A stretch of 40,639 bases of DNA from Natronolimnohabitans innermongolicus JCM 12255 (GCF_000337215.1 NZ_AOHZ01000106.1:1-40639), one strand, 5' to 3'. Shown: positions 13,755 through 39,266, numbered from the stretch's first letter. Made by a program: numbers and translations. The notes: generated from the sequence alone by a model not told the origin.

Positions 13755-13871
13755 CAGGTTCGCGTCGATCGCTTCTGTTCGCATTCAATCAAAACACCGG
13801 CGACGGTTCGGCGGACAATCAGTATACGACCGGCTGTATTTCCAGAATATCTACCATTGATTCGACAAGAA

Positions 13872-13880
13872 AGCTTATAC
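13872..13880 (+). promoter_or_regulatory. TATA-like box (AGCTTATAC) of the single-domain gene
   Basis: AGCTTATAC lies 24-32 nt upstream of ATG 13904. The AAAGCTTAT core resembles the boxes of the three Tat-exported beta-helix genes (AAAGTTTAT or AAACTTAT). A GGAG stretch directly before the ATG is too close to act as a normal ribosome binding site. Confidence 0.45.
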
Positions 13881-13903: not shown

Positions 13904-14233
13904 ATGGCACGTGACACTCCGGTACAGAACGACGCTGCCAAGACCGACACAGAACAGCTGCCGAACCTCGTGACGATCGTCGGACGAGGCGTTCCCTCGA
14001 GTTTCGAGATCACCGTCGACGGCGAACTCGAGATGGTGGCCGACGACCCCGTCGCGGAAGGGACCGTCGTCTCGGGAAGCGTCGCCGAGGGATCGATCGA
14101 CGTCGGCGTCCAGCGATTCCGATTCGCCGGCCAGGTAACGAACGTCCAGGTCGTCGACTGGAACGGGAACGCGGTTCCCGAATCGGCCAGCGTTCCCGAC
14201 GTCCACGTCGATTACGGCGTCCCGAAGCGATAA
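13904..14233 (+). CDS. Stand-alone copy of the beta-helix-associated repeat domain
   Basis: The 109-residue protein is essentially one repeat domain of the sort found in the C-terminal arrays of the proteins at 20233 and 25522. It starts with a short tail (MARDTPVQNDAAKTDTEQ), then LPNLVTIVGRGVPSSFEITV, a middle with GSVAEGSIDVGVQRFRFAGQ, and a closing VDWNGNAVPES. The closest match by eye is the second-type repeat of the larger proteins (YEITVDGTID; VQRYRFSGGISDITFVD). There is no signal peptide, so it would stay in the cytoplasm unless exported by another route. No function is known. The MARD start is shared with two of the large paralogues, which may mean it arose from one of them by loss of the signal and helix parts. 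Confidence 0.8.
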   Translation: MARDTPVQNDAAKTDTEQLPNLVTIVGRGVPSSFEITVDGELEMVADDPVAEGTVVSGSVAEGSIDVGVQRFRFAGQVTNVQVVDWNGNAVPESASVPDVHVDYGVPKR

Positions 14234-14351
14234 CCGTCCGACGCTGGGTAGGGGGTGCGGTTTGCGGTTTCTGCGGCGAGCAAGGACGAGCGCATCGCGA
14301 GCGACGCGACCGAGGCTCACCGACGGCCGGATCGAAAACTGATCGGAGTGG

Positions 14352-15653
14352 CTACCGACCGACGCGTCGCAGCCCCGACTTCGCCGACGTCCAGGCGGGG
14401 TAGACGGTGTTGTAGACCTTCGTCGGCGCATTTCGCGCGCCGGCGCGAAGCAGCCGGTGGGAAAGCGGCGGTCCGGACTCGGAGACGAGGTCGTCGAGGT
14501 CGGCCCGTTCGAGCCACTCGAAGAAGGCCGCCTCCGCCGGCGACTCGGGGTCCGTCTCGCGTGCGCGCTCGCTAATGTCTTCCCACATGTACTTCTCGTC
14601 CTGACCGAGGACCCACTGACCCTCCTCGAGGGCCGTCCGGATCTCGCGGTAGTCTTCCTCCGCGAACGGGTAGCCGTGGTCGGTCGGCTCGAGGTCGGAA
14701 AGGCGCAGTCCGACGGCGGTTCGGTAACACTTCTCGCACTCGCCGCAGTTGCCGTCCATCCGGGCGTTACAGGTCTGGAGCTGGAGAGCAGGTTCCTCCT
14801 CGCGGACGTAGTCTGCGATCGCGTCGAGACGCTCCTGGCGCGTCAGGTCGTAGGAGTCGTGGTGACACTGCGTGCCGGTCCACCGGACGTGATCGTCGAT
14901 GTCGGGTCGCGACCCCCACTCGAGGTCGATTCCCTCCCAGTGGGTCGCGGCGACGTAGAGGTCCTCCATCCCGCGCGCGTAGGCCATCGGTGCACAGAGA
15001 CCGAGCAGGCCAACGCCGTGGCCCACGGAGCTGTACCAGGCGCCGTCGACGTAGCGCTTGTAGTGGGCCAGCAACATCGGGTGGTCGAGAAACGAGAGCA
15101 TGTTCGACTCGACGAACGCCGTCTCGAGGTCGTGGTCGTCCGCAAAGGAGGTGACGCGATTGCGGAGGTGCGTCCAGTTTTCGTCGTCCGACGGCGACGG
15201 CGTGATCGTCCAGCCGCGGATGCTGATCAGCGTCGGCGACTCCTCGCGGTGGCGGACGTACGAACACGTCGAGTCGACGCCGCCGGTAAAGAGCAAGCCG
15301 CTCTCGCCGCTCGCGTCGGGTTCGACGTCGACCGTCTCCTTCGCGTAGAGGGTCCCTCCCTCGAGGAAGTCGTGCATCGCACAGAGCGACTCCTCGACGT
15401 CCGAGAGAGCGTTCGCGAACGTCTCGTCGACTTCGTCGACGTAGACGTCGGCGCCGTTCGCCCACGCGACTGGACAGACGTGGGCGAGCACGGGGATCGC
15501 GAGCACCCCCTCGGGGACGTCCTCGATTGAGACGTCGTACTCGGTTTGAAACGGTTCGTCGCCGAAGAACCGCTCGAGGTCCGCGGACGTCTGTACGTCC
15601 GCCTCGAGGGTCGTTCCGTCGGCGTGTACGCGGTCGATGACGATTGATGACAT
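14352..15653 (-). CDS. PP-loop ATPase (adenine nucleotide alpha hydrolase fold)
   Basis: The 433-residue protein starts at ATG 15653 (MSSIVIDRVHADGTTLEAD). The longer frame begins with TTG and lacks support. The PP-loop is in LLFTGGVDSTCSYV (SGGxDS-type, with F-T-G-G-V-D-S), and the adenylation fold continues with GLLGLCAPMAYARGM and DDHVRWTGTQCHHDSY. CNARMDGNCGECEKCYRT carries a Cys cluster that may bind metal, as in QueC-like enzymes. N-type PP-loop enzymes adenylate a carboxylate or carbonyl and then transfer nitrogen or sulfur. In this context an amidation or similar change to a sugar or to a glycan substituent is possible. The substrate is not evident. It is convergent with the small gene at 13904-14233. 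Confidence 0.88.
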   Translation of the reverse strand: MSSIVIDRVHADGTTLEADVQTSADLERFFGDEPFQTEYDVSIEDVPEGVLAIPVLAHVCPVAWANGADVYVDEVDETFANALSDVEESLCAMHDFLEGGTLYAKETVDVEPDASGESGLLFTGGVDSTCSYVRHREESPTLISIRGWTITPSPSDDENWTHLRNRVTSFADDHDLETAFVESNMLSFLDHPMLLAHYKRYVDGAWYSSVGHGVGLLGLCAPMAYARGMEDLYVAATHWEGIDLEWGSRPDIDDHVRWTGTQCHHDSYDLTRQERLDAIADYVREEEPALQLQTCNARMDGNCGECEKCYRTAVGLRLSDLEPTDHGYPFAEEDYREIRTALEEGQWVLGQDEKYMWEDISERARETDPESPAEAAFFEWLERADLDDLVSESGPPLSHRLLRAGARNAPTKVYNTVYPAWTSAKSGLRRVGR

Positions 15654-15735
15654 AGGTGAATCTGCTTCGAACTGATCGCTGATACGGTGGGCGCGCTGTT
15701 CGCTGTCGAGTCGAGCAACGACGAACCGGTACAAA

Positions 15736-15758
15736 AACCATCAGAACCGTTGATGGTT
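15736..15758. promoter_or_regulatory. Inverted repeat upstream of the PP-loop gene
   Basis: AACCATCA (15736-15743) and TGATGGTT (15751-15758) form a perfect 8-bp inverted repeat with a 7-nt spacer, 83 nt or more upstream of the PP-loop start. It may be a regulator site. No adjoining regulator gene is visible. Confidence 0.35.
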
Positions 15759-16102
15759 CGGAATCGAAGAATGGAACGCATTACTGAACGTTTGTCGCCG
15801 ATGTCGGAACCGTCAGCTCGTGGCTCGAGACGAAATCCGGCCCGTCAGCCGGGGTAAGAGCTGGTTACCCGACGGAGGGTCGTGCGTCGACTGCGGTTGA
15901 GTTCGTCCTTCGCCGGCGACGACGCCGCGGAATCAGCTCGAGGGACGAATTTCTCGGCGACTCGATCGACCGCCGCAACTGGACGTGTTCTCGAGGATCA
16001 CCGGCGCGTTCGACCGTCACACCGTCCGTGAGCGGTGAGACGGGAGCGGATATGTGTATTCGCGATGGTACGTCAGACCGTTTCTCGCCGTGGTACTCGA
16101 GG
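15759..16102. other. Divergent intergenic region, no gene seen
   Basis: This GC-rich stretch separates the PP-loop gene from the membrane-protein gene. Open frames on both strands have no protein-like pattern that I recognise. Confidence 0.4.
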
Positions 16103-16123
16103 GTATAGGAGGCCTATAACAAA
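16103..16123 (+). promoter_or_regulatory. GTATAG-N7-ATAACAAA promoter of the GT-C-like gene
   Basis: GTATAG (16103-16108), seven bases, then ATAACAAA (16116-16123) has the same layout as the two DUF354 promoters. It lies about 75 nt upstream of ATG 16198 and 31-38 nt upstream of the mini-ORF ATG 16154. Confidence 0.55.
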
Positions 16124-16153
16124 CCTCGTTATCCGTGTTCGTTCGGTCGACAC

Positions 16154-16201
16154 ATGCGTATCGCCACTGGATCAGCGCGGCTCCGTTTCGAGGGAGTATG
16201 A
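16154..16201 (+). CDS. Possible 15-codon leader peptide upstream of the GT-C-like gene
   Basis: ATG 16154 opens a 15-codon frame, MRIATGSARLRFEGV, whose TGA overlaps the ATG of the membrane-protein gene (ATGA). A GGGAG stretch 2-8 nt before ATG 16198 could re-initiate translation. This arrangement, promoter box, mini-ORF of 15 codons and overlapping start, is also seen at the deacetylase. Expression is not proven. Confidence 0.3.
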   Translation: MRIATGSARLRFEGV

Positions 16202-17988
16202 AACGGTCGACGCTCAACATCACGCTGGCTATCGGCTTTCTCGCGGTCGCGGTCGGGATCCTCGTTGCGAGGGCAAACCCCGCGACCAACTACGAGCCGT
16301 CGGTGTACACGGGAACGCCGACGATCACGTGGCTCGGACTCGGACTCGGGTTAGCCATCGCCGTCAGCATCGCACTGGCCTGTCGCGGCCGCGAACAGGC
16401 GCTGGGTATCGCACTCGGCGGGACGGTAGTGACGGCGATCGTCAGCCTCCCGGTGATCAGAAACTATCGATTCTCCGGAATGGGAGACGCGCTCAGCCAC
16501 CTCGGCTGGACGCGAGACATCGCCAACGCCGAGATGGCCCCGCACGAACTGTTCTATCCCGCCGTCCACACGATCGCGACGGCGTTTCACTACGTCGGCG
16601 GGATCCCGATCGAGCGCGGGCTCCTGTTCGGGATGGTCGTCCTCTTCGTCCCGTTTCTGATCTTCGTCCCCCTGATCGCGCGAGAGATCACCGGCCCCGG
16701 CATGGCGGTCGGCATCGCGGCGATCGTCTCCTGGATGATACTGCCGATCAACAACGTCGCGACGCACATGGGCGTGCACACGAACTCGAACGCCCTGTTT
16801 CTGGTTCCCGTCGTCATCTTCGCGTTCATGGCGTATCTGCGTCGCCGGGCGACGATCGAGCGGCTACCGTTCGGACTCTCGCCGTTCAGCCTGCTCATCT
16901 ACCTGACGGCGATCGGGCTGTTGCTCGTCCACCCCCAGCACATGATCGGCGTCATCGCGCTCATGGGCGCGATCGCCGGCGTGCAGTTTCTCGCCCGGCG
17001 CCGGTTCGACGATCACCCGATGCTCGACCACCCCACGATGTACGCCCACACGGTCGTCCTCGGCGTGATCTTCGGGCTCTGGGCGCTCAGTAACGAACGG
17101 TTCCGGAACGCCGCGACCGGGCTGATCGCCGGACTCTTCCAGGAGGACGTCGGCGGCGGTGCGGAGGTCGACCAGCGCGAAGCCTCGTTCGAGGCGGTCG
17201 GCAGCAGCCTCGGCGAGATGTTCGTGATCATGTTCGGCGACCTCGCGGTGATCTCGCTCGTCGTCGGCCTGTTCGTCCTGCTCGTGTGGCTCGGTCGGAG
17301 CGGTCTCGATCCGGAGACGAAGTCGTTCGTCAACTACTTCGCGCTCGCACTCGTCCCGCTGACCGGGCTGTTCCTCGTGTACTTCCTCGGGACGCCGACG
17401 ATGGCGTTCCGCCAGATCGGCTTCATCGCCGTCATCCTGACGGTGCTTGCGGGCGTCGCACTGGCTCGAGCCATCGGCGCACTCTCGGGCGTGATCACGC
17501 GTCCGGGAGGCACCGCCGCCGGCGCGGTGGTACTCGGGGTCTGTCTCGTCCTCGGACTGATGACGGTCTTCGGCTCGCCGATCATCTACAACCCCGGCCA
17601 GCACGTCACCGACCAGAAGTTCAGCGGGTACGAAACCGCGCTGAACGACGCCGACCAGGAAACACCCCTCGTCGGCATGGGCTACGACCCGTACCGGTAC
17701 GACCACGGTATCAACGGCCTCGAGGGAGTAGAGAGTCTGAGCTCCGGCGCGGCCTCGAGCGGGGTGATCGACGCCGACGAGTTCGAAAACGGCAGCTACA
17801 GCACCGCGTACAACGAGGTGGATTACAACTTCGTGGTGACGGACTTCGACACCACGCGGGAGATCGAGATCTATCAGGAACTCCATCACAGTCAGGACTC
17901 GCTCGACACCCTCGAGACGGACTCGGGTGCCGACAAAGTGATCTCGAACGAGGAGTTCCGGATGTACGCCGTGCAGGGCGAAGAGTGA
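16198..17988 (+). CDS. Polytopic membrane protein, GT-C-like
   Basis: The 596-residue protein starts MKRSTLNITLAIGFLAVAVG at ATG 16198; the longer frame from a GTG at 16135 would cover the mini-ORF. It has about 10-12 hydrophobic segments. After the first two there is GDALSHLGWTRDIANAEMAP, a GDxxxH-like first luminal loop of the kind that carries the acidic residue in GT-C enzymes. Later segments alternate with short loops, and a soluble C-terminal domain of roughly 120 residues begins after GSPIIYNPGQHVTDQKFSGY. This layout resembles membrane glycosyltransferases and oligosaccharyltransferases that use lipid-linked sugars outside the cell. Family assignment is by topology and the loop only, so it is tentative. 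It is monocistronic with its own promoter. Confidence 0.8.
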   Translation: MKRSTLNITLAIGFLAVAVGILVARANPATNYEPSVYTGTPTITWLGLGLGLAIAVSIALACRGREQALGIALGGTVVTAIVSLPVIRNYRFSGMGDALSHLGWTRDIANAEMAPHELFYPAVHTIATAFHYVGGIPIERGLLFGMVVLFVPFLIFVPLIAREITGPGMAVGIAAIVSWMILPINNVATHMGVHTNSNALFLVPVVIFAFMAYLRRRATIERLPFGLSPFSLLIYLTAIGLLLVHPQHMIGVIALMGAIAGVQFLARRRFDDHPMLDHPTMYAHTVVLGVIFGLWALSNERFRNAATGLIAGLFQEDVGGGAEVDQREASFEAVGSSLGEMFVIMFGDLAVISLVVGLFVLLVWLGRSGLDPETKSFVNYFALALVPLTGLFLVYFLGTPTMAFRQIGFIAVILTVLAGVALARAIGALSGVITRPGGTAAGAVVLGVCLVLGLMTVFGSPIIYNPGQHVTDQKFSGYETALNDADQETPLVGMGYDPYRYDHGINGLEGVESLSSGAASSGVIDADEFENGSYSTAYNEVDYNFVVTDFDTTREIEIYQELHHSQDSLDTLETDSGADKVISNEEFRMYAVQGEE

Positions 17989-18650
17989 GGTCGACGACCG
18001 CGCTCGGTACCCGGAGAGCGTCGGACCGATAGCGGGTTCGGACTCGGCGAGGCGGCGACGGCCCATCTCGGCGAACCGCGTCACCCCCGGACGGGCAACG
18101 GCCGTCGACCGTCGATCGATGACCGTGGCTGACGGACCGAGCAACTCGGTCGTCGGCTATCGGAGACCTGTCTGGTAGCTGTCGGCTGCGCGTGAGCGCC
18201 CCTGTCGTCTCTCATCCTCGCACGCGTTACAAACAATAATAGACGAGCAGTCGGCGCTACGTCCGCGAGTCCGACGCCCAACACCGTGCCCGCAGCCGAA
18301 ACCCGGACGGAAAGCAACCACCATCGCGATGCGTGCGTACTCCGTTCGTTGCAACAGGAGTCCCGCTTCGAACACGACGGCGAAGCGACCGGAAAGTGAG
18401 CGGTATCCGGCCCGTACACGACGGCCGGAGCGCCGCGTCGATCTCGAGGATTAGATCACGGTGGAAACCGAACGAACCATCTAGCAGCCGTCTCCCGGGC
18501 GATAACGCGAGATTTACTCGGAAAGTTCTGGTTACACAGGGTGTTATCAGCCGAGTTTCGTTCATTATTTCTTTAACGATGTGGCGTATATTGTGTTGTT
18601 ATCTTCATCGTTAGAAATATATTCTGTAAATTAAAGTCATCTGCGCACGG
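17989..18650. other. Intergenic region with AT-rich promoter-proximal half
   Basis: This 660-base gap is GC-rich at first and becomes AT-rich from about 18540. No convincing gene is seen. TAACGATG (18574-18581) and CATCGTTA (18606-18613) form a perfect 8-bp inverted repeat with a 24-nt spacer in the AT-rich part, upstream of the beta-helix gene promoter. Confidence 0.4.
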
Positions 18651-18660
18651 AAAAGTTTAT
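18651..18660 (+). promoter_or_regulatory. TATA-like box (AAAAGTTTAT) of the first beta-helix gene
   Basis: TTTAT lies 28-32 nt upstream of ATG 18688, at leaderless spacing. The same AAAGTTTAT core at the same distance precedes ATG 20233, so these two paralogues are likely expressed from matching promoters. Confidence 0.55.
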
Positions 18661-18687
18661 GAGTATAAGCCTAGGTTACGAAAGTGT

Positions 18688-19629
18688 ATGGCGCAGAACC
18701 CCCGTACGTCCGAAACGGATACTACGCCGACGACCGGCCGTAACAGCGGATTAAGCCGCCGAAACTACGTTCAATCGATCGCCGCAGTGGCGACCGCGGC
18801 AACCTCCCTCGGCCTGGTCGGCTCGGCGTCCGCACAGGACGACTACGAGGTCATCGAAGCCAGCGGCCAGTCGATCACCGTCGCCGACGGTGAGAGCTGG
18901 GAGAACAAACTTATCGACATGACCACCGGACAGGACGTCTCGATTACGACCACCGGCAGCGACTGGACGATCCGCAACGTCGGATTCCACGGTCGCAACG
19001 AATCCGGCGCGGGAACCGCGACGTTCGCCATTTCCGACGCCGGTGGCGAGAGTACGATCGAGAACGTCTACCTCGGCGACGGCTCCGATGACCGCAACGG
19101 GAGTTCAACCGGACACGGCCAGACCGCGTTCTGGGTCAACCCCGATCACGCCGGACACATCGACATGCAGAACGTCAACATCCAGGGCTTCGCGGACAAC
19201 GCCGTCTACGGCTCCGCACCCGGGAACGGCGGCGGTGGAACGATCCACATCGACAGCTGTTTCGCCGCGAACTGTTACGTCTCGCACTTCCGCCTCGCGA
19301 CCGAGGGCAGCAAGGTGACGAACTCGAGCATCCTCGTCGACGACGAGGGGTACGCGGGCCGCGGTATCTGGGCCTGGGCCCCCGGAACGATCGAGGTCGA
19401 GAACTGCCAGATCGAGATGAACGGCAACCACACCGCGATCGACGCCGGTGCCAACGGTCAGGGCACCCAGGTCGTCGTCGCCGACACCGACTACGACGAG
19501 CAGGCCGGCATCGCCGAACACGCCGGGTCGAACGTGCAACTCGAGGGTGACACGGGAACGGACCCCGAAGCGATTATCCCCGACGGCACGCCGACCAGCG
19601 CCGAAGCGGCCGCCGCCGGCGACGACTAA
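18688..19629 (+). CDS. Tat-exported right-handed beta-helix protein without repeat array
   Basis: The 313-residue protein has a Tat signal: SRRNYVQSIAAVATAATS, then hydrophobic residues and an ASA cleavage site before QDDYEVIEASGQ. No Cys follows, so it should be released or cell-surface associated rather than a lipoprotein. The rest is a right-handed parallel beta-helix candidate: short repeating strands such as SDWTIRNVGFHG, STIENVYLGDGSD, IDMQNVNIQGFADN and IEVENCQIEMNG. It ends with DGTPTSAEAAAAG, and the same ending marks the helix end in the two larger paralogues. This copy has no C-terminal repeat domains. The fold is used for polysaccharide binding or cleavage (pectate-lyase-like), but catalytic residues cannot be assigned. 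It probably works on, or is part of, the cell-surface glycan. Confidence 0.85.
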   Translation: MAQNPRTSETDTTPTTGRNSGLSRRNYVQSIAAVATAATSLGLVGSASAQDDYEVIEASGQSITVADGESWENKLIDMTTGQDVSITTTGSDWTIRNVGFHGRNESGAGTATFAISDAGGESTIENVYLGDGSDDRNGSSTGHGQTAFWVNPDHAGHIDMQNVNIQGFADNAVYGSAPGNGGGGTIHIDSCFAANCYVSHFRLATEGSKVTNSSILVDDEGYAGRGIWAWAPGTIEVENCQIEMNGNHTAIDAGANGQGTQVVVADTDYDEQAGIAEHAGSNVQLEGDTGTDPEAIIPDGTPTSAEAAAAGDD

Positions 19630-19708
19630 CGCGCTCGCTGCCGTCGGTGATCGCCACCGTCTTCCACCCCTCCACGCCGGGCGATTTCGACGGCAACCAC
19701 CCTCCCCC

Positions 19709-19847
19709 GCTGACGCAACCCCTCCTCACCTCGCTGACGCAGCCCCTCCTCACCTCGCTGACGCGGTCCCTCCTCACCTCGCTGACGCGGTCCCTCCCAA
19801 CCCCGCTGACGCGGTCCCTCCTCACCTCGCTGACGCAGCCTCTCCCC
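19709..19847. repeat. 24-bp tandem repeat, about six copies
   Basis: Copies begin GCTGACGC at 19709, 19733, 19757, 19781, 19805 and 19829, always 24 bases apart. The unit goes on with RRY-CCCTCC and, in most copies, TCACCTC. It lies 80 bases after the stop of the first beta-helix gene. Because 24 is a multiple of 3 each strand stays open through it, but no convincing gene uses it. Confidence 0.9.
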
Positions 19848-20198
19848 TCCACTGGACATCGTTCGCACAGTTTTTCACAGAACACTGTCCCAAATCTCGT
19901 CGCCCTCGAGTCGGGATCGAGACCGCGTCGTCGACCGTTTCGATGCGGGTGTGAAGCCGACAGCATCCCGATCGAAAGCCGCCGAGTCGGAAGTAAGAGG
20001 CTATTACTACGGATCTATTCTCCCGAACGGCCTCGAGAAAAGTCGAATAGGGCTGCGAGAGCTGGTAATATACTATTACCGGCACGATTCCTAAGAAAGA
20101 CCGATATACAAATTATCGATCTAATTTGCTAATAATATTGTCTCTAGAAACCCACGTAGCAGATGAAGTCTGTAAATTTTAAATATAATAGAGGAGAA
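19848..20198. other. Intergenic region ending in an AT-rich promoter zone
   Basis: The first part is GC-rich and shows nothing clear. From about 20060 it becomes AT-rich and holds the palindrome at 20064-20080 and the promoter of the second beta-helix gene. Confidence 0.4.
20064..20080. promoter_or_regulatory. Palindrome GGTAATA-N3-TATTACC
   Basis: A perfect 7-bp inverted repeat with a 3-nt spacer, about 150 nt upstream of ATG 20233. GGTAATA also occurs upstream of the third beta-helix gene, on its minus strand near 25543-25549. It is a candidate binding site for a dimeric regulator. Confidence 0.45.
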
Positions 20199-20205
20199 AG
20201 TTTAT
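20197..20205 (+). promoter_or_regulatory. TATA-like box (AAAGTTTAT) of the second beta-helix gene
   Basis: TTTAT (20201-20205) is 28-32 nt upstream of ATG 20233, with AAAG before it, matching the first beta-helix gene in sequence and spacing. Confidence 0.55.
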
Positions 20206-20232
20206 GGTGGTAGTTCCGGACTACTCGACTGC

Positions 20233-22011
20233 ATGGCACGCGACTCTTCGGTATCGGATGACGATCGGTACGTCGGCGGCGAAACGCAGCCGGCGTCCGA
20301 CGGTGATAGCGATAGTGGACTGATCGACCGGCGTTCGTACATGAAGATAGGTGCAGCCACGGCGGCTGCCGCGGCGTTGACGGCCGGCGTAAGCGCCTCG
20401 AGCGACGATTACGACGTCATCGAGGCCCGCGGACAGGTGATCCGGCTCGACGACGAGACGTTCGAGAACAAACTCATCGACGTCACCAGCGGAAACGACA
20501 TCTCGATCATCGTCGACGGAACCGCGACGGTCCGCAACGTCGGCGTCCATGGCCTCTACCGAGGCGACGGGTTCATCTTCACGGTCACCGCGTCACACGG
20601 TACCGTCGAGTTCGAAAACGTCTACGTCGGCGACGGCGCCAACAAGTCCGGCTCGAGTTTCACGCACGGCCCCGGCGGGTTCTTCTATCACGCGAGAGCG
20701 AACGCCGACGTCGTCTTCCGCGAGTGCAACGTCCAGGGCTATCCGAACAACGGCTGGTACTGTTCGAACAGCGCCGGCAGCGGTTCGGTCACCTGGGAGC
20801 GCTGTTACGGAAAGAACAACGGCGTTTCGACGTTCCGCGCCGCGAACCAGGGCGACACGCTGCGCGACTGCGTCGCGTACAACGACGACACCGATTACTC
20901 GACCGAAAACGGCAACTGGGGCGGCTACACCGAAGACACCGGCCGGCCGCTGTGGGTCTGGCCGCCCGGCGGCATCACCGTCGAAAACTGCCAGTTCGAC
21001 GCCGGCAGCTACGGCTCGGCCGTCGTCACCCACAACGGCTCCTCCGTCAGTCTCGACGGCGGTGCCGTCTCCGGCGGCGCACAGGGCAGCGTCAATCTCT
21101 CGAGCGCCGGCGACGATCCCGACCTCTCGGTCCCCGAGGGCGTTCCGACGTCCGCCGAGGAGGCGGCAACCGGCGAGGGCGCGAGCGCCTCGAGCGGCGC
21201 GGACAGCGAGGACAGCGAGGACGAGGAGCAGTCCCACGTCCTCCTCTTCGACGGCGACGCCGCGGACGTGACGCGTTACGAGTTCGTCGTCGACGGCGAC
21301 GTCGAACCCTCGAACGACGAGGGGGCGTCGATCGACGCGGCGACTGAAATCGACGACGACACCGTCCACGGCGTCGTCGCAGACTGGCGCGACGCCTTCC
21401 GGTTCGACGGCGACCTCGAGAACCTCACCGTCGACGGACCGGCGACCGTCCTCCTCGACGGCGAGGAGATCGATCCCGACGAGGTCGGCGCCGAACTCCC
21501 CCACGTCCTCGAGGTCGAGGGCCAGGGCGAGCCGACGAGCTTCGAACTCACCGTCGACGGGACGATCGAGCTCGCGGACGACGAAGACGAGTCGACCGCG
21601 ATTTCGGGCTCGACGGTCCAGAGCTCTGTCACCGACGAGACGTTGCCGTTCCAGTTCTCGGGCGCGCTGACCGACGTGACGATCATCGACGGCGACGCGG
21701 CGGTCCGACTCGACGACGAGGAGATCGATCCCGACGAGTACGGCGAGACCGAACTGCTCCCCCACGCCATCGTCTTCGACGGCACCGAGACCGACGAGCC
21801 GAGCTCCTACGCCTTCGAAACCAGCGGCGCGGTCCACAAGTCGACCTATCAGGACGCGACGATCAGCAGCGACGACGTCATCGAGGGCCAGACGGTCCGC
21901 GGCGTCGTCGATGACTGGCTCGACGCCTACTGGTTCGACGGCGACCTCGAGGAGTTCACGCTCAACGGGGACGCGGACGTCGACATTCAGTACAACGCCC
22001 GCGATCAGTAA
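20233..22011 (+). CDS. Tat-exported beta-helix protein with three C-terminal repeat domains
   Basis: The 592-residue protein starts MARDSSVSDDDRYVGG and has a Tat motif at residues 33-34 (DRRSYMKIGAATAAAAAL). Residues about 57-305 are a beta-helix like that of the 18688 protein, ending LSVPEGVPTSAEEAA. After an acidic Ser/Glu linker come three repeat domains from about residues 333, 422 and 509 to the C-terminus. Each shows the pattern LPH-x4-G, a Y/F-E-F-x-VDG strand, GTVxGxV, DAFRFDGDLExLTVDG, and DPDEYG at the end. The repeats differ in type, in the order a-b-c. No lipobox is seen. The protein is probably exported folded and sits in or on the surface glycan. The function of the repeat domain is unknown; carbohydrate or calcium binding are guesses. 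Confidence 0.87.
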   Translation: MARDSSVSDDDRYVGGETQPASDGDSDSGLIDRRSYMKIGAATAAAAALTAGVSASSDDYDVIEARGQVIRLDDETFENKLIDVTSGNDISIIVDGTATVRNVGVHGLYRGDGFIFTVTASHGTVEFENVYVGDGANKSGSSFTHGPGGFFYHARANADVVFRECNVQGYPNNGWYCSNSAGSGSVTWERCYGKNNGVSTFRAANQGDTLRDCVAYNDDTDYSTENGNWGGYTEDTGRPLWVWPPGGITVENCQFDAGSYGSAVVTHNGSSVSLDGGAVSGGAQGSVNLSSAGDDPDLSVPEGVPTSAEEAATGEGASASSGADSEDSEDEEQSHVLLFDGDAADVTRYEFVVDGDVEPSNDEGASIDAATEIDDDTVHGVVADWRDAFRFDGDLENLTVDGPATVLLDGEEIDPDEVGAELPHVLEVEGQGEPTSFELTVDGTIELADDEDESTAISGSTVQSSVTDETLPFQFSGALTDVTIIDGDAAVRLDDEEIDPDEYGETELLPHAIVFDGTETDEPSSYAFETSGAVHKSTYQDATISSDDVIEGQTVRGVVDDWLDAYWFDGDLEEFTLNGDADVDIQYNARDQ

Positions 22012-22126
22012 CGAGCGGAGTATCACACTCGAGACGGTGCCAAAAAGAGTCGCACCGATTTCGAACGACGACCGGGACTGAAACGGATCACCTCGCTTTC
22101 TGCGTTCGCACTTCCGCTGACGCCGT

Positions 22127-22225
22127 TCAGGTCAACTGCGCGATCGTTTCGCGCGGATCGACAACCCCACTGGCCGTGACCACGCCCCAGATCGCGAGTC
22201 CGACGGCAATCACTCCGAGCAGCAA
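22127..22225 (-). pseudogene. C-terminal fragment of a membrane protein (remnant)
   Basis: On the minus strand a hydrophobic segment, LLLGVIAVGLAIWGVV, followed by TASGVVDPRETIAQLT and a stop, looks like the last membrane helix and tail of a longer protein. The start and body are missing. At its 5' side, near 22225, it meets a plus-strand glycosyltransferase remnant, so two broken genes abut here. The call rests on composition only. Confidence 0.4.
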
Positions 22226-22759
22226 CGGACTGCTCGATGCGGTAGCGCGAACCGACGGCCGACAGGAAGTACACGTGGTCGGTCGGGGGCCGAGAAGGCG
22301 GGCGTCCGTAACCGAGCCAGCGAACTCGGGCTCGACGACCGCGTCGTCGTCCACGGTGCAGTCCCTCATCCCGAACTGCCGACTTACTACGCGAGCGCCG
22401 ACGTATTCTGTCTACCGAGTCACAACGAGAGCTTTGGCATGGCCAACGTCGAAGCGATGGCAGCCGGATTGCCGGTCGCCACGACGAGCCTCGAGGATAT
22501 TCGGACGTATCTCACAAACGGCCACAACGGATTGCTCGCGCGGGTCGGCGATCCACGAGATCTCGCGGACAAACTCGCGATGGTACTCGAGAACCCGCAG
22601 CTTCGGCGGCAACTCGGCCAGCAGGCTCGCGAGGACGTTCGGGCGACGTTTACCTGGGACGAGCAGGCCCGCCGACTCGAGCGGTTCTGTTACGAGACGT
22701 TCGACCTCGACGAACCGAAGTCGACGCGGGAATCACAGCCGATTTCGACGACGGGTTGA
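22224..22759 (+). pseudogene. Broken GT4-type glycosyltransferase (C-terminal half, frameshifted)
   Basis: From about 22224 one frame reads NGLLDAVARTDGRQEVHVVG, typical of the start of the donor domain of GT-B enzymes. Near 22290-22300 the homology moves to another frame, which reads ASELGLDDRVVVHGAVPHPE, then YYASADVFCLPSHNESFG, and MANVEAMAAGLPVATTSLED with the E-x7-E-type motif. It ends near 22759. The N-terminal half of the protein is absent and there is a frameshift at the junction of the two frames. This is a remnant of a former glycan gene, lying in the 22012-23056 gap between two beta-helix paralogues. Confidence 0.8.
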
Positions 22760-23056
22760 CAGCGCGGTCGCTCTCGGATTGGATGCAGTGAAAGTGGCTC
22801 CCGCGCCTGAAACGGAAACAGATGCTGGCACGCGAACTGCTCCGGTACTGGATGACGGTCGTCGGGAGCCAATCGTCCCTTCGAGTGCCGTGAATAAAAG
22901 TCCTTCCGCCCGACACCTGCAGTGAAAACCGATGCGGGGCGGCGTCGGCGGTACCGGATCGCCCTCGATGGGCGCCGCCGGTCGGTTCGGTAGGGGCGCT
23001 ACTGAAACGAGGCACACACTGAGCGCAACGTCCGGCGATCAGGCGTGCAGTGACGG
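22760..23056. other. Intergenic remnant, no intact gene
   Basis: The stretch follows the broken glycosyltransferase. A short plus-strand frame (about 22788-22893) reads WLPRLKRKQMLARELLRYWM and stops, without a start codon, and could be a further gene fragment. The rest has no clear content. Confidence 0.35.
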
Positions 23057-25522
23057 TCAGTGGCTACTGTACTCGCTTCGAGCGTTGTACTCGACGTCGA
23101 CGTTCGCGTCGCCGGCCAACGTGAAGTCGGCGATATCGCCGTCGAACCAGTAGGCGTCGCGGGAGCCGTCGACGCTGCCGCTGACGGACGTCCCCTCGAT
23201 GACGTCGCCCTCGTCGACCGTGGCGTCGCGGTAGTTCGCGACGAGCACGTCGCCGTCGATCTCGAACGAGTAGGTCGTCTCGCCGTCGGCGTCGGTGCCG
23301 TCGATCACGATGGCGTGGGGGAGCAGTTCGGTCTCGCCGTACTCGTCGGGGTCGACCGGTTCGTCGTCGACGTAGACGTCAGCCGAGCCGTCGACGAACG
23401 TAATGTCGCTGATCCCGCCGGAGAATCGGTAACGCTGGACGTCGTCCTCGACGATACCGGTCAGAATGTCATCGGAGAGATCGACCGCATCGGGGAGCGC
23501 CTCGCCGGGGAGTCGATCGATCGTCCCGTCGACGGTGATCTCGTAGCTGGCCTGGGACTCGTCGCCGACGACCGTCAGCGTGTGGGGCAGGTCCTCGCCG
23601 TAGTCGCTCGGATCGACGCGCTCGCCGTCCAGGTAGACGTGGGCCGGTCCGTCGACGGTGAGTTCCTCGAGGTCGCCGGTGAACCGGAAGGCGTCGCGCC
23701 AGCCGGCGACCGAGCCGGTGACGGTGCCGCTGTCGATGACGTCCTCGTCGTCGATCGTCGCGCCCTCGTCGGTCGACTTGCGGACGGAGCCGCCGACCGC
23801 GAACTCGTAGCGGCTTCCGCCGGACGTGCCGACGCCGTCGATCAGAATCGTGTGATCGTAGCCGTCGTCGTGCCACGGCATGTCGCCCTTCCAGTCGTCG
23901 CCCGTCGCCCCCTCGAGGGGGTAGCGGCTGGGGTAGGAGTCGACATCGTTGATGAGGGGGTAGGCGGGCCCCTCGATCGTGACGTCGATGAGGTCCGTAT
24001 CGAACTCCCAGGCGTGGGTACCGTCGACGACGCGGCCGGCCGCGCGGTGGCCGTCGTCGCTGACCCACATGTACTCGTCCTCGATTTCGGCGTCGCGGTA
24101 GGTCGAAGGCTCGATCGGGCCCTCCTCGACCTCGAAGTAGTAGTCAGTCGGCTCGTCTTCGCCCTCGGCGACGAACTGGTAGGTGTGCTGGAGTTCGGGG
24201 TGGTCGCCGTGCCACGGCATGTCACCCTTCCAACCGTCGCCCGTCGCACCATCGAGCGGGTAGCGATCGAGGTGAGACTGGACGCCGTTGATCGTCACGT
24301 CGGCCGAGCCGTCGACGGTGGCGTCGACGATGTCGGTATCGAACTCCCAGGCGTGGTGGTCGTCGCTGATTCGACCCGCGGCGCGGGCCCCGTCGTCGCT
24401 GACCCACATGAAGTCCTCGTCGATGGTCGCACCGTTGGCCGTCGAGGGCTTGATCGGGCCCTCCTCGACCTCGAAATAGTAGTCGGTCGCCTCGTCTTCG
24501 TCCCGGCCGGCGAACTCGTAGACGTGCTGGAGGTCGTCGTGATCGCCCTCGGGTTTGTCGGAGCCCGAAGGGTTGTCTCCCGACGACTCGCCGCCGGCGG
24601 CCTCGCTCGCTGACGTCGGAACGCCGTCGGGAACCGAGAGGTCGGGGCTGCCCCCGTTCTCGACGCCGTGGCCCTCAGAGTAGCTGCCGGAGCCGGACAT
24701 GCTGTAGCCGCTGTGTCGGGTGTCTTCGACGTGGGTCCGTGAGCCGGATCGTCCGTAAATCGACGAGCCGTTACCGTAGGAACCGCCGTCGAAATCGCAG
24801 CCGGAAATCTCCTGGTCGCCCCAGCCCCAGAACGGCCGACCCCGGTATCGACCGCTTCCGTCGTTGTACGCGACGGAGTCGACCACTTCGCTGTCGTCGG
24901 AGATCCGGAACGAGGAGACGTAGTTGTTCTTCCCGAAGCAGTTCTCGATCCTGACCGTCCCCGGCGTGTCGTACGCCGCCGCGCTGGCGTAGATCCCGTT
25001 GTTCGGCCAGTCCTCGAGGTAGACGTTTCGAATGTCGAGGTGACCGGAGTGACCGCGGTGGACGAAGATTCCACACTGTCCGTGCGAGCTGTAGGAACTC
25101 GGTCGAACGCAGCCGTCGCCGAGGTAGACGTTCTCGATCGTCGACGTGTTCCCACCCTCGTCACGAGCGACGATCGCGTGATTGTCGTGAGTGTGCGTGC
25201 CGCGGAATCCGACGTTGCGGATCGTCCAGTTCGTTCCGCTGGCGAGGATCGTCATCCAGTTGCCGTTCGTAAAGTCGATAATCTTGTTCTCGAACACCTC
25301 GCCGTCGTCCAGTCTGTAGTTACTGTTGTCCGCTTCGATAACTTCGACGTCCTCGTCGCTCGCGCTGACTGCGGTCGCCGCCGTCGCGGCGACGGTCGCC
25401 GCACCGGCGAGTTTGAGATACGATCGCCGGTCGATTAAGCCGTTATTACCCGCGCTATTTCCGTCTGAGAGGCCGCTGTGGCCTTCCACATCATCATCCA
25501 GTTCCGAACTGTCGCGTGCCAT
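23057..25522 (-). CDS. Tat-exported beta-helix protein with five C-terminal repeat domains
   Basis: The 821-residue protein starts MARDSSELDDDVEGHSGLSD and carries a Tat signal (LIDRRSYLKLAGAATVAATA). A beta-helix follows to about residue 310 (INFxN-like repeats such as TWTIRNVGFRG-type strands and LDIRNVYLEDWPNNG). After a linker of low complexity come five repeat domains starting near residues 331, 444, 557, 645 and 734. The first two form a longer subtype of about 113 residues (YYFEVEEGPI; HAWEFDTDLIDVTIEG; GDxWKGDMPWH). The last three match the a-b-c series of the 20233 protein, ending with DANVDVEYNARS. It is probably exported folded and faces the surface glycan. The function of the repeats is unknown. 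The gene is on the opposite strand to its two large paralogues. Confidence 0.87.
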   Translation of the reverse strand: MARDSSELDDDVEGHSGLSDGNSAGNNGLIDRRSYLKLAGAATVAATAATAVSASDEDVEVIEADNSNYRLDDGEVFENKIIDFTNGNWMTILASGTNWTIRNVGFRGTHTHDNHAIVARDEGGNTSTIENVYLGDGCVRPSSYSSHGQCGIFVHRGHSGHLDIRNVYLEDWPNNGIYASAAAYDTPGTVRIENCFGKNNYVSSFRISDDSEVVDSVAYNDGSGRYRGRPFWGWGDQEISGCDFDGGSYGNGSSIYGRSGSRTHVEDTRHSGYSMSGSGSYSEGHGVENGGSPDLSVPDGVPTSASEAAGGESSGDNPSGSDKPEGDHDDLQHVYEFAGRDEDEATDYYFEVEEGPIKPSTANGATIDEDFMWVSDDGARAAGRISDDHHAWEFDTDIVDATVDGSADVTINGVQSHLDRYPLDGATGDGWKGDMPWHGDHPELQHTYQFVAEGEDEPTDYYFEVEEGPIEPSTYRDAEIEDEYMWVSDDGHRAAGRVVDGTHAWEFDTDLIDVTIEGPAYPLINDVDSYPSRYPLEGATGDDWKGDMPWHDDGYDHTILIDGVGTSGGSRYEFAVGGSVRKSTDEGATIDDEDVIDSGTVTGSVAGWRDAFRFTGDLEELTVDGPAHVYLDGERVDPSDYGEDLPHTLTVVGDESQASYEITVDGTIDRLPGEALPDAVDLSDDILTGIVEDDVQRYRFSGGISDITFVDGSADVYVDDEPVDPDEYGETELLPHAIVIDGTDADGETTYSFEIDGDVLVANYRDATVDEGDVIEGTSVSGSVDGSRDAYWFDGDIADFTLAGDANVDVEYNARSEYSSH

Positions 25523-25767
25523 ACGATCAGTTCAATAAGCTATTACCTACATAAGTTTTCTGGAAATCTTGAATAAGACGGTGCGATAGTAATGTATTCG
25601 AGAATGTATCTGTATCTTATATGTACATACATTCAATTCTTCTGGACTATTTCGTCTAGAATACTATGACAGTAACGAGTGGTGGGAGACGGGGCTAGAC
25701 TGGGCTGGGCGATATATCGTCCGACCGCGAGGCGCGATCTCGGAACCAGCGAGAACCGACGAGTCCG
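25523..25767. other. AT-rich intergenic region with an inverted repeat
   Basis: This gap holds the promoter of the minus-strand beta-helix gene: on the minus strand AAAACTTAT has its TTAT 29-32 nt upstream of ATG 25522. Further upstream, GAATGTA (25602-25608) and TACATTC (25628-25634) form a perfect 7-bp inverted repeat, with AATGTAT repeated directly at 25591 and 25603. Confidence 0.5.
25551..25559 (-). promoter_or_regulatory. TATA-like box (AAAACTTAT) of the third beta-helix gene
   Basis: On the minus strand AAAACTTAT lies 29-37 nt upstream of ATG 25522, in line with the matching boxes of the two plus-strand paralogues. Confidence 0.55.
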
Positions 25768-27711
25768 TTATCGAGGCGATAGCGTGGCCTCGAGGTCGAC
25801 GTCGGAGAGATTCTCGAAGACGTACTCGACGATTTCCGAGCGTGACTCCATCTTCTCGGTGTACGTACTCACGGCGTCGAATCGCCAGTCGAGTTCGAGA
25901 CGGTGCAGGTAGACGCTCGGGAGGTACAGTTCGAACGTTCGAACCGGAATCCCGACCTCCCGACAGTAGCCGCGGATCATCGAGCGCATGATTCGGGCGT
26001 ACTCGTTGTCCCCGCAGAAGACGGTCCGGAAGCCGTCTTCGAGCCCCCCGAAAACACGCATCGCCGTGTTCAACGCCAGAAAGCCGGCGTCGATGATCGG
26101 CGAAGCCTCGAATGCGCCGTACTCCCAGTCGATCACGCTCGTCACGTCCGATCCGTCGACGTGGATGTTTCCGGCCAGGTAGTCGCCGTGGACGGGCGTA
26201 AAGAAGGTCGTGACCGACTCGTCGATGGGCGGCGGCTCGATGCCGGTCGGCGCGAAGCTGAGGTCGTCTCGGACCTCGGCCGGCGACCGCGTGACCGTAG
26301 GGCCGCGAAACGCCTGCTGGAACTCGATGAGCCAGTCGAAGCCGAGCCGGAGCACCCGCTCGTAGGACCGCAGGTTACGCGAGAGGTCGTCGGCGAGTGG
26401 CTCGCCGGCCACGGGCGTCTCCACTCTGGCCTCCCCACACGGCGTCTCGACATCGGTCCCACGGGGTAACGTCTCGACGATCGGCTCGTTCGACACCTGC
26501 AGCGACGAGAGGACCGCGTTCTCCCGCTCGGTGAACGGCGCGTGCGCTCGTCGGTTCGGGAACTTCCAGACCGTCTCGAGGCCGTCGTCGTCGGTTTCGA
26601 GGACGACCGATCGGGTTCGACCAGGGACCAACAACGGATCGTCGAACGTCGTCGACCGCTCGAGCGAGCCGCCGTCGGCGTCGCCGTTCTCACAGACCGC
26701 AAGGACGCTCGGATGGAGCCGATCGAGCAGTCCCGTTCGGTTGGCAAGCGAGACGAGCGGCTTTCCCATCCGCGCGAATCGGCCGTAGTCCGAGAGCAAA
26801 ATCTCGGCGAGCAGGTCGACGGCCCGCTCGTTGTCGACGCCGAAGACGAACAGCGGGCGGTCCGCCGTCGGGAACAGCGAGTACAGCGACGCCGAGTCGA
26901 ATCCCGCCGCCGTTATCATCGAACGATAGGTCCCCGGCGTTCCGTCCGTGAGTGCTCCACTCGGGATTGCTTCGGTGGTATCGGCATCGAGGAGTTCCGT
27001 CAGCCCGCTCCGACGCGACCAGCCGTCGGCGGTGAAAACGAGCGTCCCGTCGTCGGTGAGATACTCCGACAGACGAGACAGCCGCGTTCGCATCTCACCC
27101 GTACTCGAGCCCGTGAAATCCGCGACGATGGTATCGAACGAGTTCGGCCCGAAGGGGAGTCGGTCCTCCGTCGTGTGGAGCGGAAGCACGCGCTCGGTCC
27201 CGTCGTAGTCGGTTCGCGTCGCCGCGACGCGTAGCTTCTCGAGGTTCGAATCGACAGCGACGACCGAGTCGGCAAGTTCACTCAAGACGTGCGCCCGGCG
27301 GCCGAACCCGGCGTCGACGTCGAGACACCGGCCAGTAATCGTTCCGCCGACGAGCGCGGTCCACGACTCGCGGTTGACGTCGTATATCGTGCTCAGGGCG
27401 TCCCCTCTGGCGGGGTGATCCTCGAGGACGGTCGTCGTCGCTTCGCGAATCGAGCCCGTTTCGGCGCGCTCGGCGAGCAGCCGCAGTTCGTCCGGCTCGA
27501 GACCGGTCGCATCCGGTTCGTCACCGGCGGTCGGCCGTGTGCCGGCGGCCGGAGTCAGCGACGGGATTCCGTGTTTGAACTCGCCGTCGAAACCACAGTG
27601 TCGACAGTGAAGCGACTCGAGCGAGAGCGGCTGTTCACAGTCCGGACAGCGTGAGCGAACGCTGTCGAGCAGCGACGGTTCGATCGTCTCGTTATCTTTG
27701 TGTAATGACAT
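25768..27711 (-). CDS. Fusion of zinc ribbon, SAM methyltransferase and APH-type kinase
   Basis: The 647-residue protein joins three modules. Residues 22-39 hold a zinc ribbon (CPDC at 22-25 and CRHC at 36-39). A methyltransferase follows: TGRCLDVDAGFGRRAHVL near residues 125-142 is motif I, with an acidic Asp closing the next strand (VVAVDSN). A kinase of the aminoglycoside-phosphotransferase type occupies about 370-610: a VWKFP strand with Lys, the catalytic loop VHGDYLAGNIHV from about 507, and the metal-binding DWEYG from 528. APH kinases phosphorylate small molecules or sugars. The gene follows the flippase by 6 bases in one operon, so it probably modifies the glycan or its lipid carrier, which is inference. 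This fused form is unusual. Confidence 0.86.
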   Translation of the reverse strand: MSLHKDNETIEPSLLDSVRSRCPDCEQPLSLESLHCRHCGFDGEFKHGIPSLTPAAGTRPTAGDEPDATGLEPDELRLLAERAETGSIREATTTVLEDHPARGDALSTIYDVNRESWTALVGGTITGRCLDVDAGFGRRAHVLSELADSVVAVDSNLEKLRVAATRTDYDGTERVLPLHTTEDRLPFGPNSFDTIVADFTGSSTGEMRTRLSRLSEYLTDDGTLVFTADGWSRRSGLTELLDADTTEAIPSGALTDGTPGTYRSMITAAGFDSASLYSLFPTADRPLFVFGVDNERAVDLLAEILLSDYGRFARMGKPLVSLANRTGLLDRLHPSVLAVCENGDADGGSLERSTTFDDPLLVPGRTRSVVLETDDDGLETVWKFPNRRAHAPFTERENAVLSSLQVSNEPIVETLPRGTDVETPCGEARVETPVAGEPLADDLSRNLRSYERVLRLGFDWLIEFQQAFRGPTVTRSPAEVRDDLSFAPTGIEPPPIDESVTTFFTPVHGDYLAGNIHVDGSDVTSVIDWEYGAFEASPIIDAGFLALNTAMRVFGGLEDGFRTVFCGDNEYARIMRSMIRGYCREVGIPVRTFELYLPSVYLHRLELDWRFDAVSTYTEKMESRSEIVEYVFENLSDVDLEATLSPR

Positions 27712-32826: not shown

Positions 32827-33216
32827 ATGAAGACCACACGGCACGCGACCTACAACCTCAACTACCACATAGTGTGGTTGCCGAAGTACCGCAACTCGGT
32901 GCTGGTTAACGAGGTAGAAGACCGTGTGCGCCGAATCCTCCAAGAAATCGCCGACGAAAAGGGATTGGAGATCGTCGACCTCACCATCCAATCCGACCAC
33001 GTTCACTTGTTCGTGAGTAGTCCACCGAAACACGCCCCGTCACTTCTCGCCAACTGGTTCAAAGGCATCAGTTCGCGGAAATACAACCACCGCTACGCCG
33101 ACCACGACGGCGAGAAAATCAAGTGGGCGCGCGGCTACTACGCCGGAACAGCAGGACACGTCTCAAACGAAACGGTTCAAGACTACATCCAGCGTCACGA
33201 GGAGGACGAACAGTGA
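32827..33216 (+). CDS. tnpA: IS200/IS605-type Y1 transposase TnpA
   Basis: The 129-residue protein is a Y1-type HUH transposase. The metal-binding HUH motif is H58-V-H60 (IQSDHVHLFV), and the catalytic Tyr is Y120 in ETVQDYIQRH. The N-terminus (NYHIVWLPKYR) and the length of about 130 residues are typical of the family. It cuts and rejoins single-stranded DNA at the hairpin ends, moving the element through a circular intermediate tied to replication forks. All key residues are present, so it should be functional. Its stop TGA overlaps the GTG start of tnpB. Confidence 0.95.
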   Translation: MKTTRHATYNLNYHIVWLPKYRNSVLVNEVEDRVRRILQEIADEKGLEIVDLTIQSDHVHLFVSSPPKHAPSLLANWFKGISSRKYNHRYADHDGEKIKWARGYYAGTAGHVSNETVQDYIQRHEEDEQ

Positions 33217-34448
33217 CCGAACTCACCGAGACGCTGGAACTCAAGCTTGTGGAGCCAAACGCCCACAAGCACCGCAAACTCTGTGAGACGAAACGGGCGT
33301 ACCAAGACGCCCTCGAAGCCGCGTTCAACACAAACTGCACCACTCAGACCGAAGCGAACGACGTGGTAGTCAACTACGACCTGAGCGGTTACGCGAAAAA
33401 CGCTCTCAAGAAGTACGTCCCGCAACTCTGCGGAGGGAGCTACGTCGCGAAAGAGATTGACGACGACCACCCGGTTCGGTTCACGAACGAAGGCCCGAAG
33501 CTCGACCACAAGCCACAGAACGGGATCGAGTGGTACGTCAAAATCCCCCACCACGACGACTACCACCTCTGGTTGCCCGCGCAACCGAACCCCGAACAGC
33601 GAGAGTGGCTCGAAGCGTTGCACGCGGGGGACGCGACAATGGGTGAGTGTCGGCTGTTCGATCGGGACGGTGAGTGGTATTCCCACATCGTCGCAACGCG
33701 GGACGTGGAGGAACGACCCAGTTCGGCGGACGAAACGCCGATTGGGGTAGACATCGGGGAGGCCTCTTTGTTAACGGTGTGTCACCGTGACGAGCGCGGC
33801 TCCCCGGCTACACCCAACCTTTGGAACGACGAAGGCAAACAGGTTCGACGGTTCCGTGAGACGTACTTCACGGCGACTCGACGCCTTCAGCAACGCGGAA
33901 GTGAACGTATCGCAGAGTCCTACGGGGATTCGCTTTGGCGGCAGATAGACGACATTCTCCATACGGTCACGTCGGGGGTCGTCGCCTACGCCGACCAATT
34001 CGAGAATCCCGTGTTGGTTCTGGAAGACCTCACGCATATCCGCGAGAACATGGACTACGGCGCGTTCATGAACCGGCGCTTGCACGGATGGGGCTTTGCG
34101 AAGATGCACGCCCAACTCCGCTACAAAGCCGCCGAGAAAGGGATTCGTGTGGAGACGGTGAATCCCGCGTACACCTCGAAGACGTGCCACTGTTGCGGAG
34201 AACAGGGGTACCGCCCCGATCAAGCAACGTTCAAGTGTTCCAATTCGGAGTGTTGGGTTTCGGAGTACCACGCGGACATCAACGCCGCGCTCAATATTGC
34301 AGACCGCTACCTCGGCGGAGAGAGTCATTCAAGAGAATACACGGATGGCGATGACTCGGCTGAGGAAGGGGGCCGTTTGACCGGCCCACAAGACAGCCAA
34401 GTCGATGCTGAAGCCCAGCAATTGACGCTTGGAGCGTATGCGTCTTGA
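33213..34448 (+). CDS. tnpB: TnpB RNA-guided nuclease of the IS element
   Basis: The 411-residue protein starts at GTG 33213, overlapping the tnpA stop, with GGAGG as ribosome binding site about 8 nt upstream; the frame from 33123 is too long. The RuvC-like triad is D180 (IGVDIGE), E271 (LVLEDLTHI) and D355 (HADINAALNI). A zinc-finger pair lies between the last two (CHCCGEQG and CSNSEC). Length and motifs are those of complete TnpB, the guide-RNA-dependent nuclease related to Cas12. It uses an RNA made from the right end of the element to cut the empty donor site, which keeps the element in place. All catalytic residues are present. Confidence 0.95.
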   Translation: MTELTETLELKLVEPNAHKHRKLCETKRAYQDALEAAFNTNCTTQTEANDVVVNYDLSGYAKNALKKYVPQLCGGSYVAKEIDDDHPVRFTNEGPKLDHKPQNGIEWYVKIPHHDDYHLWLPAQPNPEQREWLEALHAGDATMGECRLFDRDGEWYSHIVATRDVEERPSSADETPIGVDIGEASLLTVCHRDERGSPATPNLWNDEGKQVRRFRETYFTATRRLQQRGSERIAESYGDSLWRQIDDILHTVTSGVVAYADQFENPVLVLEDLTHIRENMDYGAFMNRRLHGWGFAKMHAQLRYKAAEKGIRVETVNPAYTSKTCHCCGEQGYRPDQATFKCSNSECWVSEYHADINAALNIADRYLGGESHSREYTDGDDSAEEGGRLTGPQDSQVDAEAQQLTLGAYAS

Positions 34449-38939: not shown

Positions 38940-39266
38940 ATGATCGAATCCTCACACATCGCAGGGAATATGAATACGGTCAGCAATACTGCGAGCGTGG
39001 TTCGACAACCTGCGGAGTGGATGCAGCCCGTCGACGACCGAATCCTCGAACTCTTCCGCGAGCACGGAAATCTCACTCCTGCGGCAGTCGAGGAATTCGG
39101 TGGTCCCTCGAGCAGCCACGCCAGCCGCAGGTGCAAGCAGTTAGCCCGGTACGGCCTTCTCGAGCAGATCGTGACTGGTCTCTATACGATCACCGAGGAG
39201 GGTGAGGCGTATCTCGATGAGGAGTTAGATGCGAGCGAACTCAAGGCGACTTCCGAGACTTCATAG
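38940..39266 (+). CDS. PhiH1-repressor-like winged-helix protein
   Basis: The 108-residue protein carries a winged helix: WMQPVDDRILELFREHGNLT, then AAVEEFGGPSSSHASRRCKQ, LARYGLLEQIVTGLYTITEE, and a GEAYLDEELDASEL end. This order is that of the haloarchaeal PhiH1 repressor family, which is common on viruses and plasmids. It probably binds an operator close to its own promoter. The start is ATG 38940 or, less likely, ATG 38970 (MNTVSNTASVV). The candidate operator lies between 38887 and 38908. Confidence 0.85.
   Translation: MIESSHIAGNMNTVSNTASVVRQPAEWMQPVDDRILELFREHGNLTPAAVEEFGGPSSSHASRRCKQLARYGLLEQIVTGLYTITEEGEAYLDEELDASELKATSETS

Follow-up and report, generated by a model that had tools for sequence, protein, structure and literature searches.

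The proteins encoded by a 40,639-nt stretch of DNA from Natronolimnohabitans innermongolicus JCM 12255 (the window) carry nine copies of one domain of about 86 residues: one in a stand-alone protein, three in a 592-residue protein, and five in an 821-residue protein. Our reading of this domain, offered tentatively and with slightly less than an even chance of being right as a whole, is that it is a haloarchaea-specific accessory beta module, likely holding proteins to glycans or to the cell envelope, with a cytoplasmic derivative that would bear on the expression of envelope genes.

Units of the domain in the window

For a non-circular test, a profile HMM was made solely with units, 80 in all, taken from other families of haloarchaea. 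Among the window proteins searched, this other-family HMM found exactly nine units (E 3e-27 to 2e-8); neither the paralogue encoded from position 18688 nor any of four further window proteins gave a match. The E values and matched residues given below are from this HMM.

13904..14233, + strand: stand-alone single-domain protein (P0001), 109 residues, without a signal peptide (HMM, tree, dN/dS)
13958-14230, + strand: domain in the stand-alone protein, residues 19-109 (matched at residues 19-96, E 3.5e-11)
18688..19629, + strand: Tat-type beta-helix paralogue without the domain, 313 residues (RRNYVQ motif; no unit found)
20233..22011, + strand: Tat-type beta-helix protein with three domains a-b-c (P0003), 592 residues
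20401..21162 (approximate), + strand: beta-helix region of the 592-residue protein, from alignment with the modelled 821-residue protein
21232..21495, + strand: unit a, residues 333-419 (E 5.5e-25)
21496..21747, + strand: unit b, residues 422-504 (E 2.2e-16)
21748..22008, + strand: unit c, residues 509-592 (E 2.7e-21)
23057..25522, - strand: Tat-type beta-helix protein with five domains l-l-a-b-c (P0004), 821 residues
24584..25360, - strand: beta-helix region of the 821-residue protein, residues 55-313 (AlphaFold model; VIA)
24194..24532, - strand: longer unit l1, by HMM (residues 331-422, E 6.7e-11)
23861..24193, - strand: longer unit l2, by HMM (residues 444-535, E 1.7e-8)
23591..23860, - strand: unit a, by HMM (residues 555-642, E 3e-27)
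23333..23590, - strand: unit b, by HMM (residues 645-729, E 3.5e-17)
23060..23332, - strand: unit c, by HMM (residues 734-818, E 4.6e-20)

The original prediction had placed four ORFs here with copy numbers of 0, 1, 3, and 5, and both the ORFs and the numbers were correct. The paralogue without the domain had been described as a helix only; its helix can indeed be aligned with those of the 592- and 821-residue proteins. The motifs by which the domain had been recognized (LPH-x4-G, YxFxVDG, GxVxGxV, DAFxFxGDL, VDGxAxVxLDG, and DPDEYG) hold as a consensus, with several units lacking some of them. Units l1 and l2 are divergent members of the domain, distinguished by an insertion and by an extension at the C-terminus. 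Identity between same-type units of the two arrays was 44-59% (a, 58%; b, 44%; c, 59%) and that between l1 and l2 was 65%; pairs of different types were mostly less similar, the exception being M_a/M_b at 48%.

Twin-arginine motifs followed by Ala-rich stretches were present in the proteins encoded from 20233 (DRRSYMK), 25522 (DRRSYLK), and 18688 (SRRNYVQ); the Pfam TAT_signal model matched the 592-residue protein with an E value of 0.015, below the cut-off. The domain is common to a signal-less protein and to Tat-type exported proteins, as had been proposed. A further relative, of 847 residues, is encoded on contig C41 of the same genome.

A tree of 162 units was used to examine the unit types. 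Types a, b, c, and l from Natrialbaceae each formed one clade with members from many genera, although deeper nodes were poorly supported. The stand-alone copies formed one clade (support 0.958) within the group that holds b (0.95), and the copy from the window clustered with 15 other stand-alone copies. Because each type forms its own clade across genera, we conclude that the fixed order of units was inherited and not rebuilt. The earlier claims of a fixed a-b-c order and of a b-type unit in the small protein are borne out by the same-type identities and by these clades.

Fold, distribution, and naming of the domain

An AlphaFold model of the 821-residue protein, built with 32 relatives, had a mean pLDDT of 82.1 and a pTM of 0.42. 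It contained a beta-helix (residues about 55-313), a low-confidence linker, and then five compact all-beta domains, the units having high local confidence and the linkers low confidence. VIA alignment of the model matched the helix only (residues about 47-313), leaving the units (331-821) outside. The helix gave Z scores of 17-20 against tens of beta-helix enzymes, the best match being the PL6 alginate lyase 7dmk (Z 19.9, rmsd 3.8 over 247 residues). The N-terminal part of the model therefore has the predicted fold of PL6 lyases and other right-handed parallel beta-helix enzymes, from which the protein differs in that its repeated units lie outside the helix. That the units might instead continue a longer beta-helix was rejected on the structure prediction, in which they appear, as the original prediction had it, as separate domains.

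The model of the stand-alone protein, built with 99 relatives, was of moderate quality (pLDDT 74.8, pTM 0.60) and consisted entirely of strands. Its best Foldseek match was a cohesin-like module (2jh2, 2xdh), but with an E value of 0.035 and TM of 0.3-0.4 this was weak and not significant. Cohesins also occur on exported proteins of some archaea. By VIA the best match, also weak, was the lectin CV-IIL (Z 5.4); chitin-binding domains and an adhesin domain ranked next. Cellulose- and xylan-binding domains, cohesins, and Ig-like and adhesin repeats were among the other weak neighbors, and so were complement, Grainyhead, and YcnI domains. Because such Z scores may mean a common arrangement only, we propose that each unit is an independently folding all-beta domain, predicted to be sandwich-like, and assign it to no fold family.

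The domain had been presented as a feature of the locus in the window; it is in fact spread across the class Halobacteria. A 10-unit profile (E<=1e-3) matched 275 of the 391 Halobacteria genomes sampled, spread over 75 of 86 genera, which rules out restriction to this locus or genus. With a 99-unit profile (E<=1e-4), 36 of 295 genomes of the phylum Halobacteriota matched, all from the same order, and the domain was in none of about 242 other Halobacteriota genomes. All 38 matches among plasmid records were haloarchaeal, most of them annotated "hypothetical protein", as were the plasmid copies that were inspected. Phage records and IMG/VR gave no match; for bacteria, the search covered plasmid and phage collections only.

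Outside the window the domain is often found on beta-helix or pectate-lyase-like proteins. It also occurs on a GH16 protein (L135), a subtilase with a GH26 match (L110), a polysaccharide deacetylase (L134), an AstE/M14-like protein (L130), and a kelch-repeat protein (L132). The carbohydrate-active partners are thus GH16, GH26, polysaccharide deacetylase, and pectate-lyase-like domains, alongside kelch, subtilase, and M14-like ones. A protein has 1-7 copies, arranged in tandem head-to-tail with short linkers, and these may precede the main domain; single-unit architectures are known and are sometimes N-terminal (L106, L108, L137). In another family (L097) a single-domain protein has a twin-arginine-like start. 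Of 79 array ORFs, 43 passed a strict filter for RR plus hydrophobicity; because many that did not pass are cut loci or have a visible RRSYxK motif, this figure was not taken as a count.

No Pfam family matched any of 99 diverse members at E<=0.01, and weak matches to DUF896, Peptidase_S7, Lipid_bd, and PLipase_C_C, being below the cut-off, were dismissed. NCBIfam gave one match, to a single member of the 99 (E 0.0086), far from family level. A PDB sequence search gave only a CBM40-like protein (6er2-6er4, E 0.19) and a phage fiber chain (E 0.31), and no paper describing the domain was found in open-access full text. The view that the domain has no name agrees with the absence of any Pfam or NCBIfam model covering the members scanned. 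Judged by Pfam, NCBIfam, and open-access text, the family is undescribed.

The stand-alone gene and its surroundings

With each species represented by a single genome, a scan yielded 60 stand-alone relatives. All were in records named as Natrialbaceae MAGs or as genera of that family. A hydrophobic N-terminal stretch was found in 0 of the 60, which supports a cytoplasmic location for the protein as predicted from sequence. Comparison with syntenic orthologues gave dN/dS values of 0.12-0.18, indicating purifying selection. At the C-terminal end a conserved tail of its own, DWNG..PES.S.P.VHVDYG, which is absent from the arrays, replaces the DGxAxV/DPDEYG motifs.

The window copy and most chromosomal orthologues make up a subgroup designated type I. 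Its gene cluster encodes a deacetylase, a phosphodiesterase-type enzyme, a GNAT protein, the stand-alone protein, a 433-residue orphan, a 617-residue membrane protein, a helix protein, and a helix-a-b-c protein, and is conserved in the window, Haloterrigena turkmenica pHTUR04, Natronorubrum bangense, and N. texcoconense. The 433-residue (14352-15653, - strand) and 617-residue (16135-17988, + strand; many membrane segments) proteins had no Pfam match, and their synteny extends to at least two further loci in Natrialbaceae. A remnant of a glycosyltransferase family 4 gene lies at 22277-22741 (+ strand). Its N-terminal half is gone, and what is left corresponds to residues 229-378 of a 386-residue H. 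turkmenica protein (63%); on pHTUR04 the intact GT4 gene adjoins the array gene. Elsewhere in the window, one ORF at 25768-27711 (- strand) combines an N-terminal Zn-ribbon-like part with methyltransferase and APH-type phosphotransferase domains, and a pair of IS200/IS605 type, judged by sequence, lies at 32827-34448 (+ strand), the TnpA-like ORF (129 residues) overlapping the TnpB-like one (441 residues).

The same genome has a second signal-less stand-alone copy on contig C109 (L013, 10826-11545), beside genes for a GT2 and sugar-nucleotide enzymes. Downstream of it is a small winged-helix-like gene, common to loci L083, L087, and L095; a protein similar to its product is encoded in the window at 38940-39266.

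A PadR-type gene was present in the 2.5-kb flanks of 20 of the 60 stand-alone loci: directly upstream on the same strand in 16, divergent with its near end less than 500 bp away in 3, and downstream at 1.4 kb in 1. Its near end was within 500 bp at 19 of the 60. A 91-residue neighbor of the stand-alone gene matched PF03551 (E 4.7e-12). By rough arithmetic, a PadR gene within 1 kb would be expected for about 1% of genes; the genomes examined have 4-29 related PadR genes each, so some proximity comes cheaply. The PadR link covers one stand-alone subgroup only, and the type I copy in the window had no PadR gene nearby. The pair of PadR and stand-alone genes recurs on plasmids in unrelated neighborhoods: each of the Natrinema zhouii plasmids NZ_CP084882 to NZ_CP084885 has at least one pair, and two of them have two (L225, L227, L228, L230, L233, L234).

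Similar short sequences precede the stand-alone gene and the three helix genes of the window.

13870..13878, + strand: promoter-like box AAAGCTTAT, 34 nt before the ATG of the stand-alone gene
18652..18660, + strand: promoter-like box AAAGTTTAT before the 18688 gene
20197..20205, + strand: promoter-like box AAAGTTTAT before the 20233 gene
25551..25559, - strand: variant box AAAACTTAT before the 25522 gene, outside the search pattern

The strict form, AAAGYTTAT at 22-27 nt from the ATG, occurred in the genome only before genes of the family (4/4, of 14 pattern matches), and in 55 of the 60 stand-alone relatives the ATG was preceded, at 32-34 nt, by a GAAAGYTTAT-like box. A reversed-pattern control gave 10 matches vs 14, showing no enrichment of the loose pattern by itself. 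Looser matches preceded plausible genes for SecF-like, ETF-beta-like, glycosyltransferase, and AglB-like proteins, and the box resembles the published haloarchaeal elements BRE (CGAAA) and TATA (TTWT) (PMC4983044); for these reasons the idea of a family-specific operator was dropped. The box is best read as the core promoter of a gene that is probably leaderless. On contig C81 (72602-72791; L147, L148), the box occurs in both orientations between genes for a GT2-like protein and an AglB-like oligosaccharyltransferase.

Possible functions of the exported and stand-alone copies

The domain is of a known kind, an accessory beta module of exported proteins; its signal-less branch is unusual. Like CBM2/CBM5-like and chitin-binding domains, it is small and all-beta and occurs in one or more copies on exported proteins that act on glycans, and the stand-alone model has a weak likeness to the Pyrococcus furiosus chitin-binding domain 2cwr (VIA Z 5.3). 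It differs from carbohydrate-binding modules in having no Pfam sequence match, no significant structural match, and a signal-less clade. In the explanation we favor, a protein with a twin-arginine signal carries 1-7 of these modules in a row, behind its beta-helix or other glycan-acting or hydrolytic domain or in some cases ahead of it, and the exported units would most likely hold the protein to a polysaccharide or to a glycosylated envelope surface, as carbohydrate-binding modules do. Glycan binding is suggested by the partner domains together with the weak structural neighbors; a kelch or subtilase partner does not imply action on glycans, and since no structural match was confident, the likeness to carbohydrate-binding folds may reflect a common beta-sandwich arrangement.

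The main rival, which we consider unlikely, is that the exported units are structural beads without a ligand, either a stalk or spacer such as Ig-like repeats form or a means of multimerization. Tandem units with short linkers in numbers that vary from 1 to 7, partners as diverse as kelch and subtilase domains, and the Ig-like and adhesin repeats among the weak structural matches all fit a spacer. Single-unit architectures, several of which are known and some of which are N-terminal, fit it poorly, and the persistence of a, b, and c as distinct types in one order across genera goes beyond what a spacer needs. Purifying selection on a signal-less stand-alone copy likewise counts against it.

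Within Natrialbaceae, according to the favored explanation, a copy resembling b came to be encoded by a gene of its own, lacking a signal, and its product stayed in the cytoplasm. That gene is found in at least two contexts, a cluster for extracellular glycan, as in the window, and a two-gene pair with a PadR-type regulator on chromosomes and plasmids; within the cell its product would most likely bind a ligand that is small or related to glycans, and would bear on the expression of envelope genes. The PadR genes near about a third of the loci suggest a possible role in ligand sensing or regulation. The arrangement resembles known PadR-type systems, in which the target gene is adjacent, in having a PF03551 neighbor with an adjacent or divergent gene; it differs in that the adjacent gene here encodes a derived export-module domain without a named family.

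Two other roles for the stand-alone protein seem less probable still. The original prediction took it to be a cytoplasmic partner of the arrays, and of this the location is supported by the lack of a signal, whereas the partnership, whether as a chaperone, an export escort, or an assembly factor pairing with b units, is in our view improbable. The stand-alone clade groups beside b, the gene has a similar promoter-like box, and the window, H. turkmenica, and N. bangense all have it together with array genes in a single conserved cluster. However, the gene is kept, divergent from PadR, in five genomes of one genus, Halovivax-like by an identical N-terminal sequence, that have no close a-b-c match and only distant domain-bearing proteins; its persistence without a-b-c arrays weakens the partner reading. 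Many copies, some duplicated with PadR, lie in unrelated plasmid neighborhoods, the C-terminal end has diverged, and the box resembles a haloarchaeal core promoter, most of its other matches also preceding plausible genes. It is also improbable that PadR and the stand-alone gene make up a small mobile pair with a regulatory function, the domain modulating PadR directly and independently of what the exported units do. The 20 loci with PadR nearby, mostly directly upstream, and the stand-alone copies on all four matching N. zhouii plasmids would suit such a pair, but the type I copy has no PadR nearby and the abundance of PadR genes makes proximity cheap.

A more specific form of the favored explanation, and a speculative one that we regard as improbable, is that Natrialbaceae returned a glycan-binding domain of exported proteins to the cytoplasm, where it and PadR form a mobile sensor pair that measures envelope-glycan intermediates and tunes the expression of surface-glycan genes.

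The domain matters because most haloarchaeal genomes carry it: it is present in about 70% of those sampled, yet is nameless in Pfam and NCBIfam. Defining it would give an annotation to many exported haloarchaeal proteins and a handle on how Tat-exported enzymes may be kept near the cell surface in saturated brine. The signal-less clade would represent an export-type domain re-used inside the cell, beside a regulator, as a two-gene pair.
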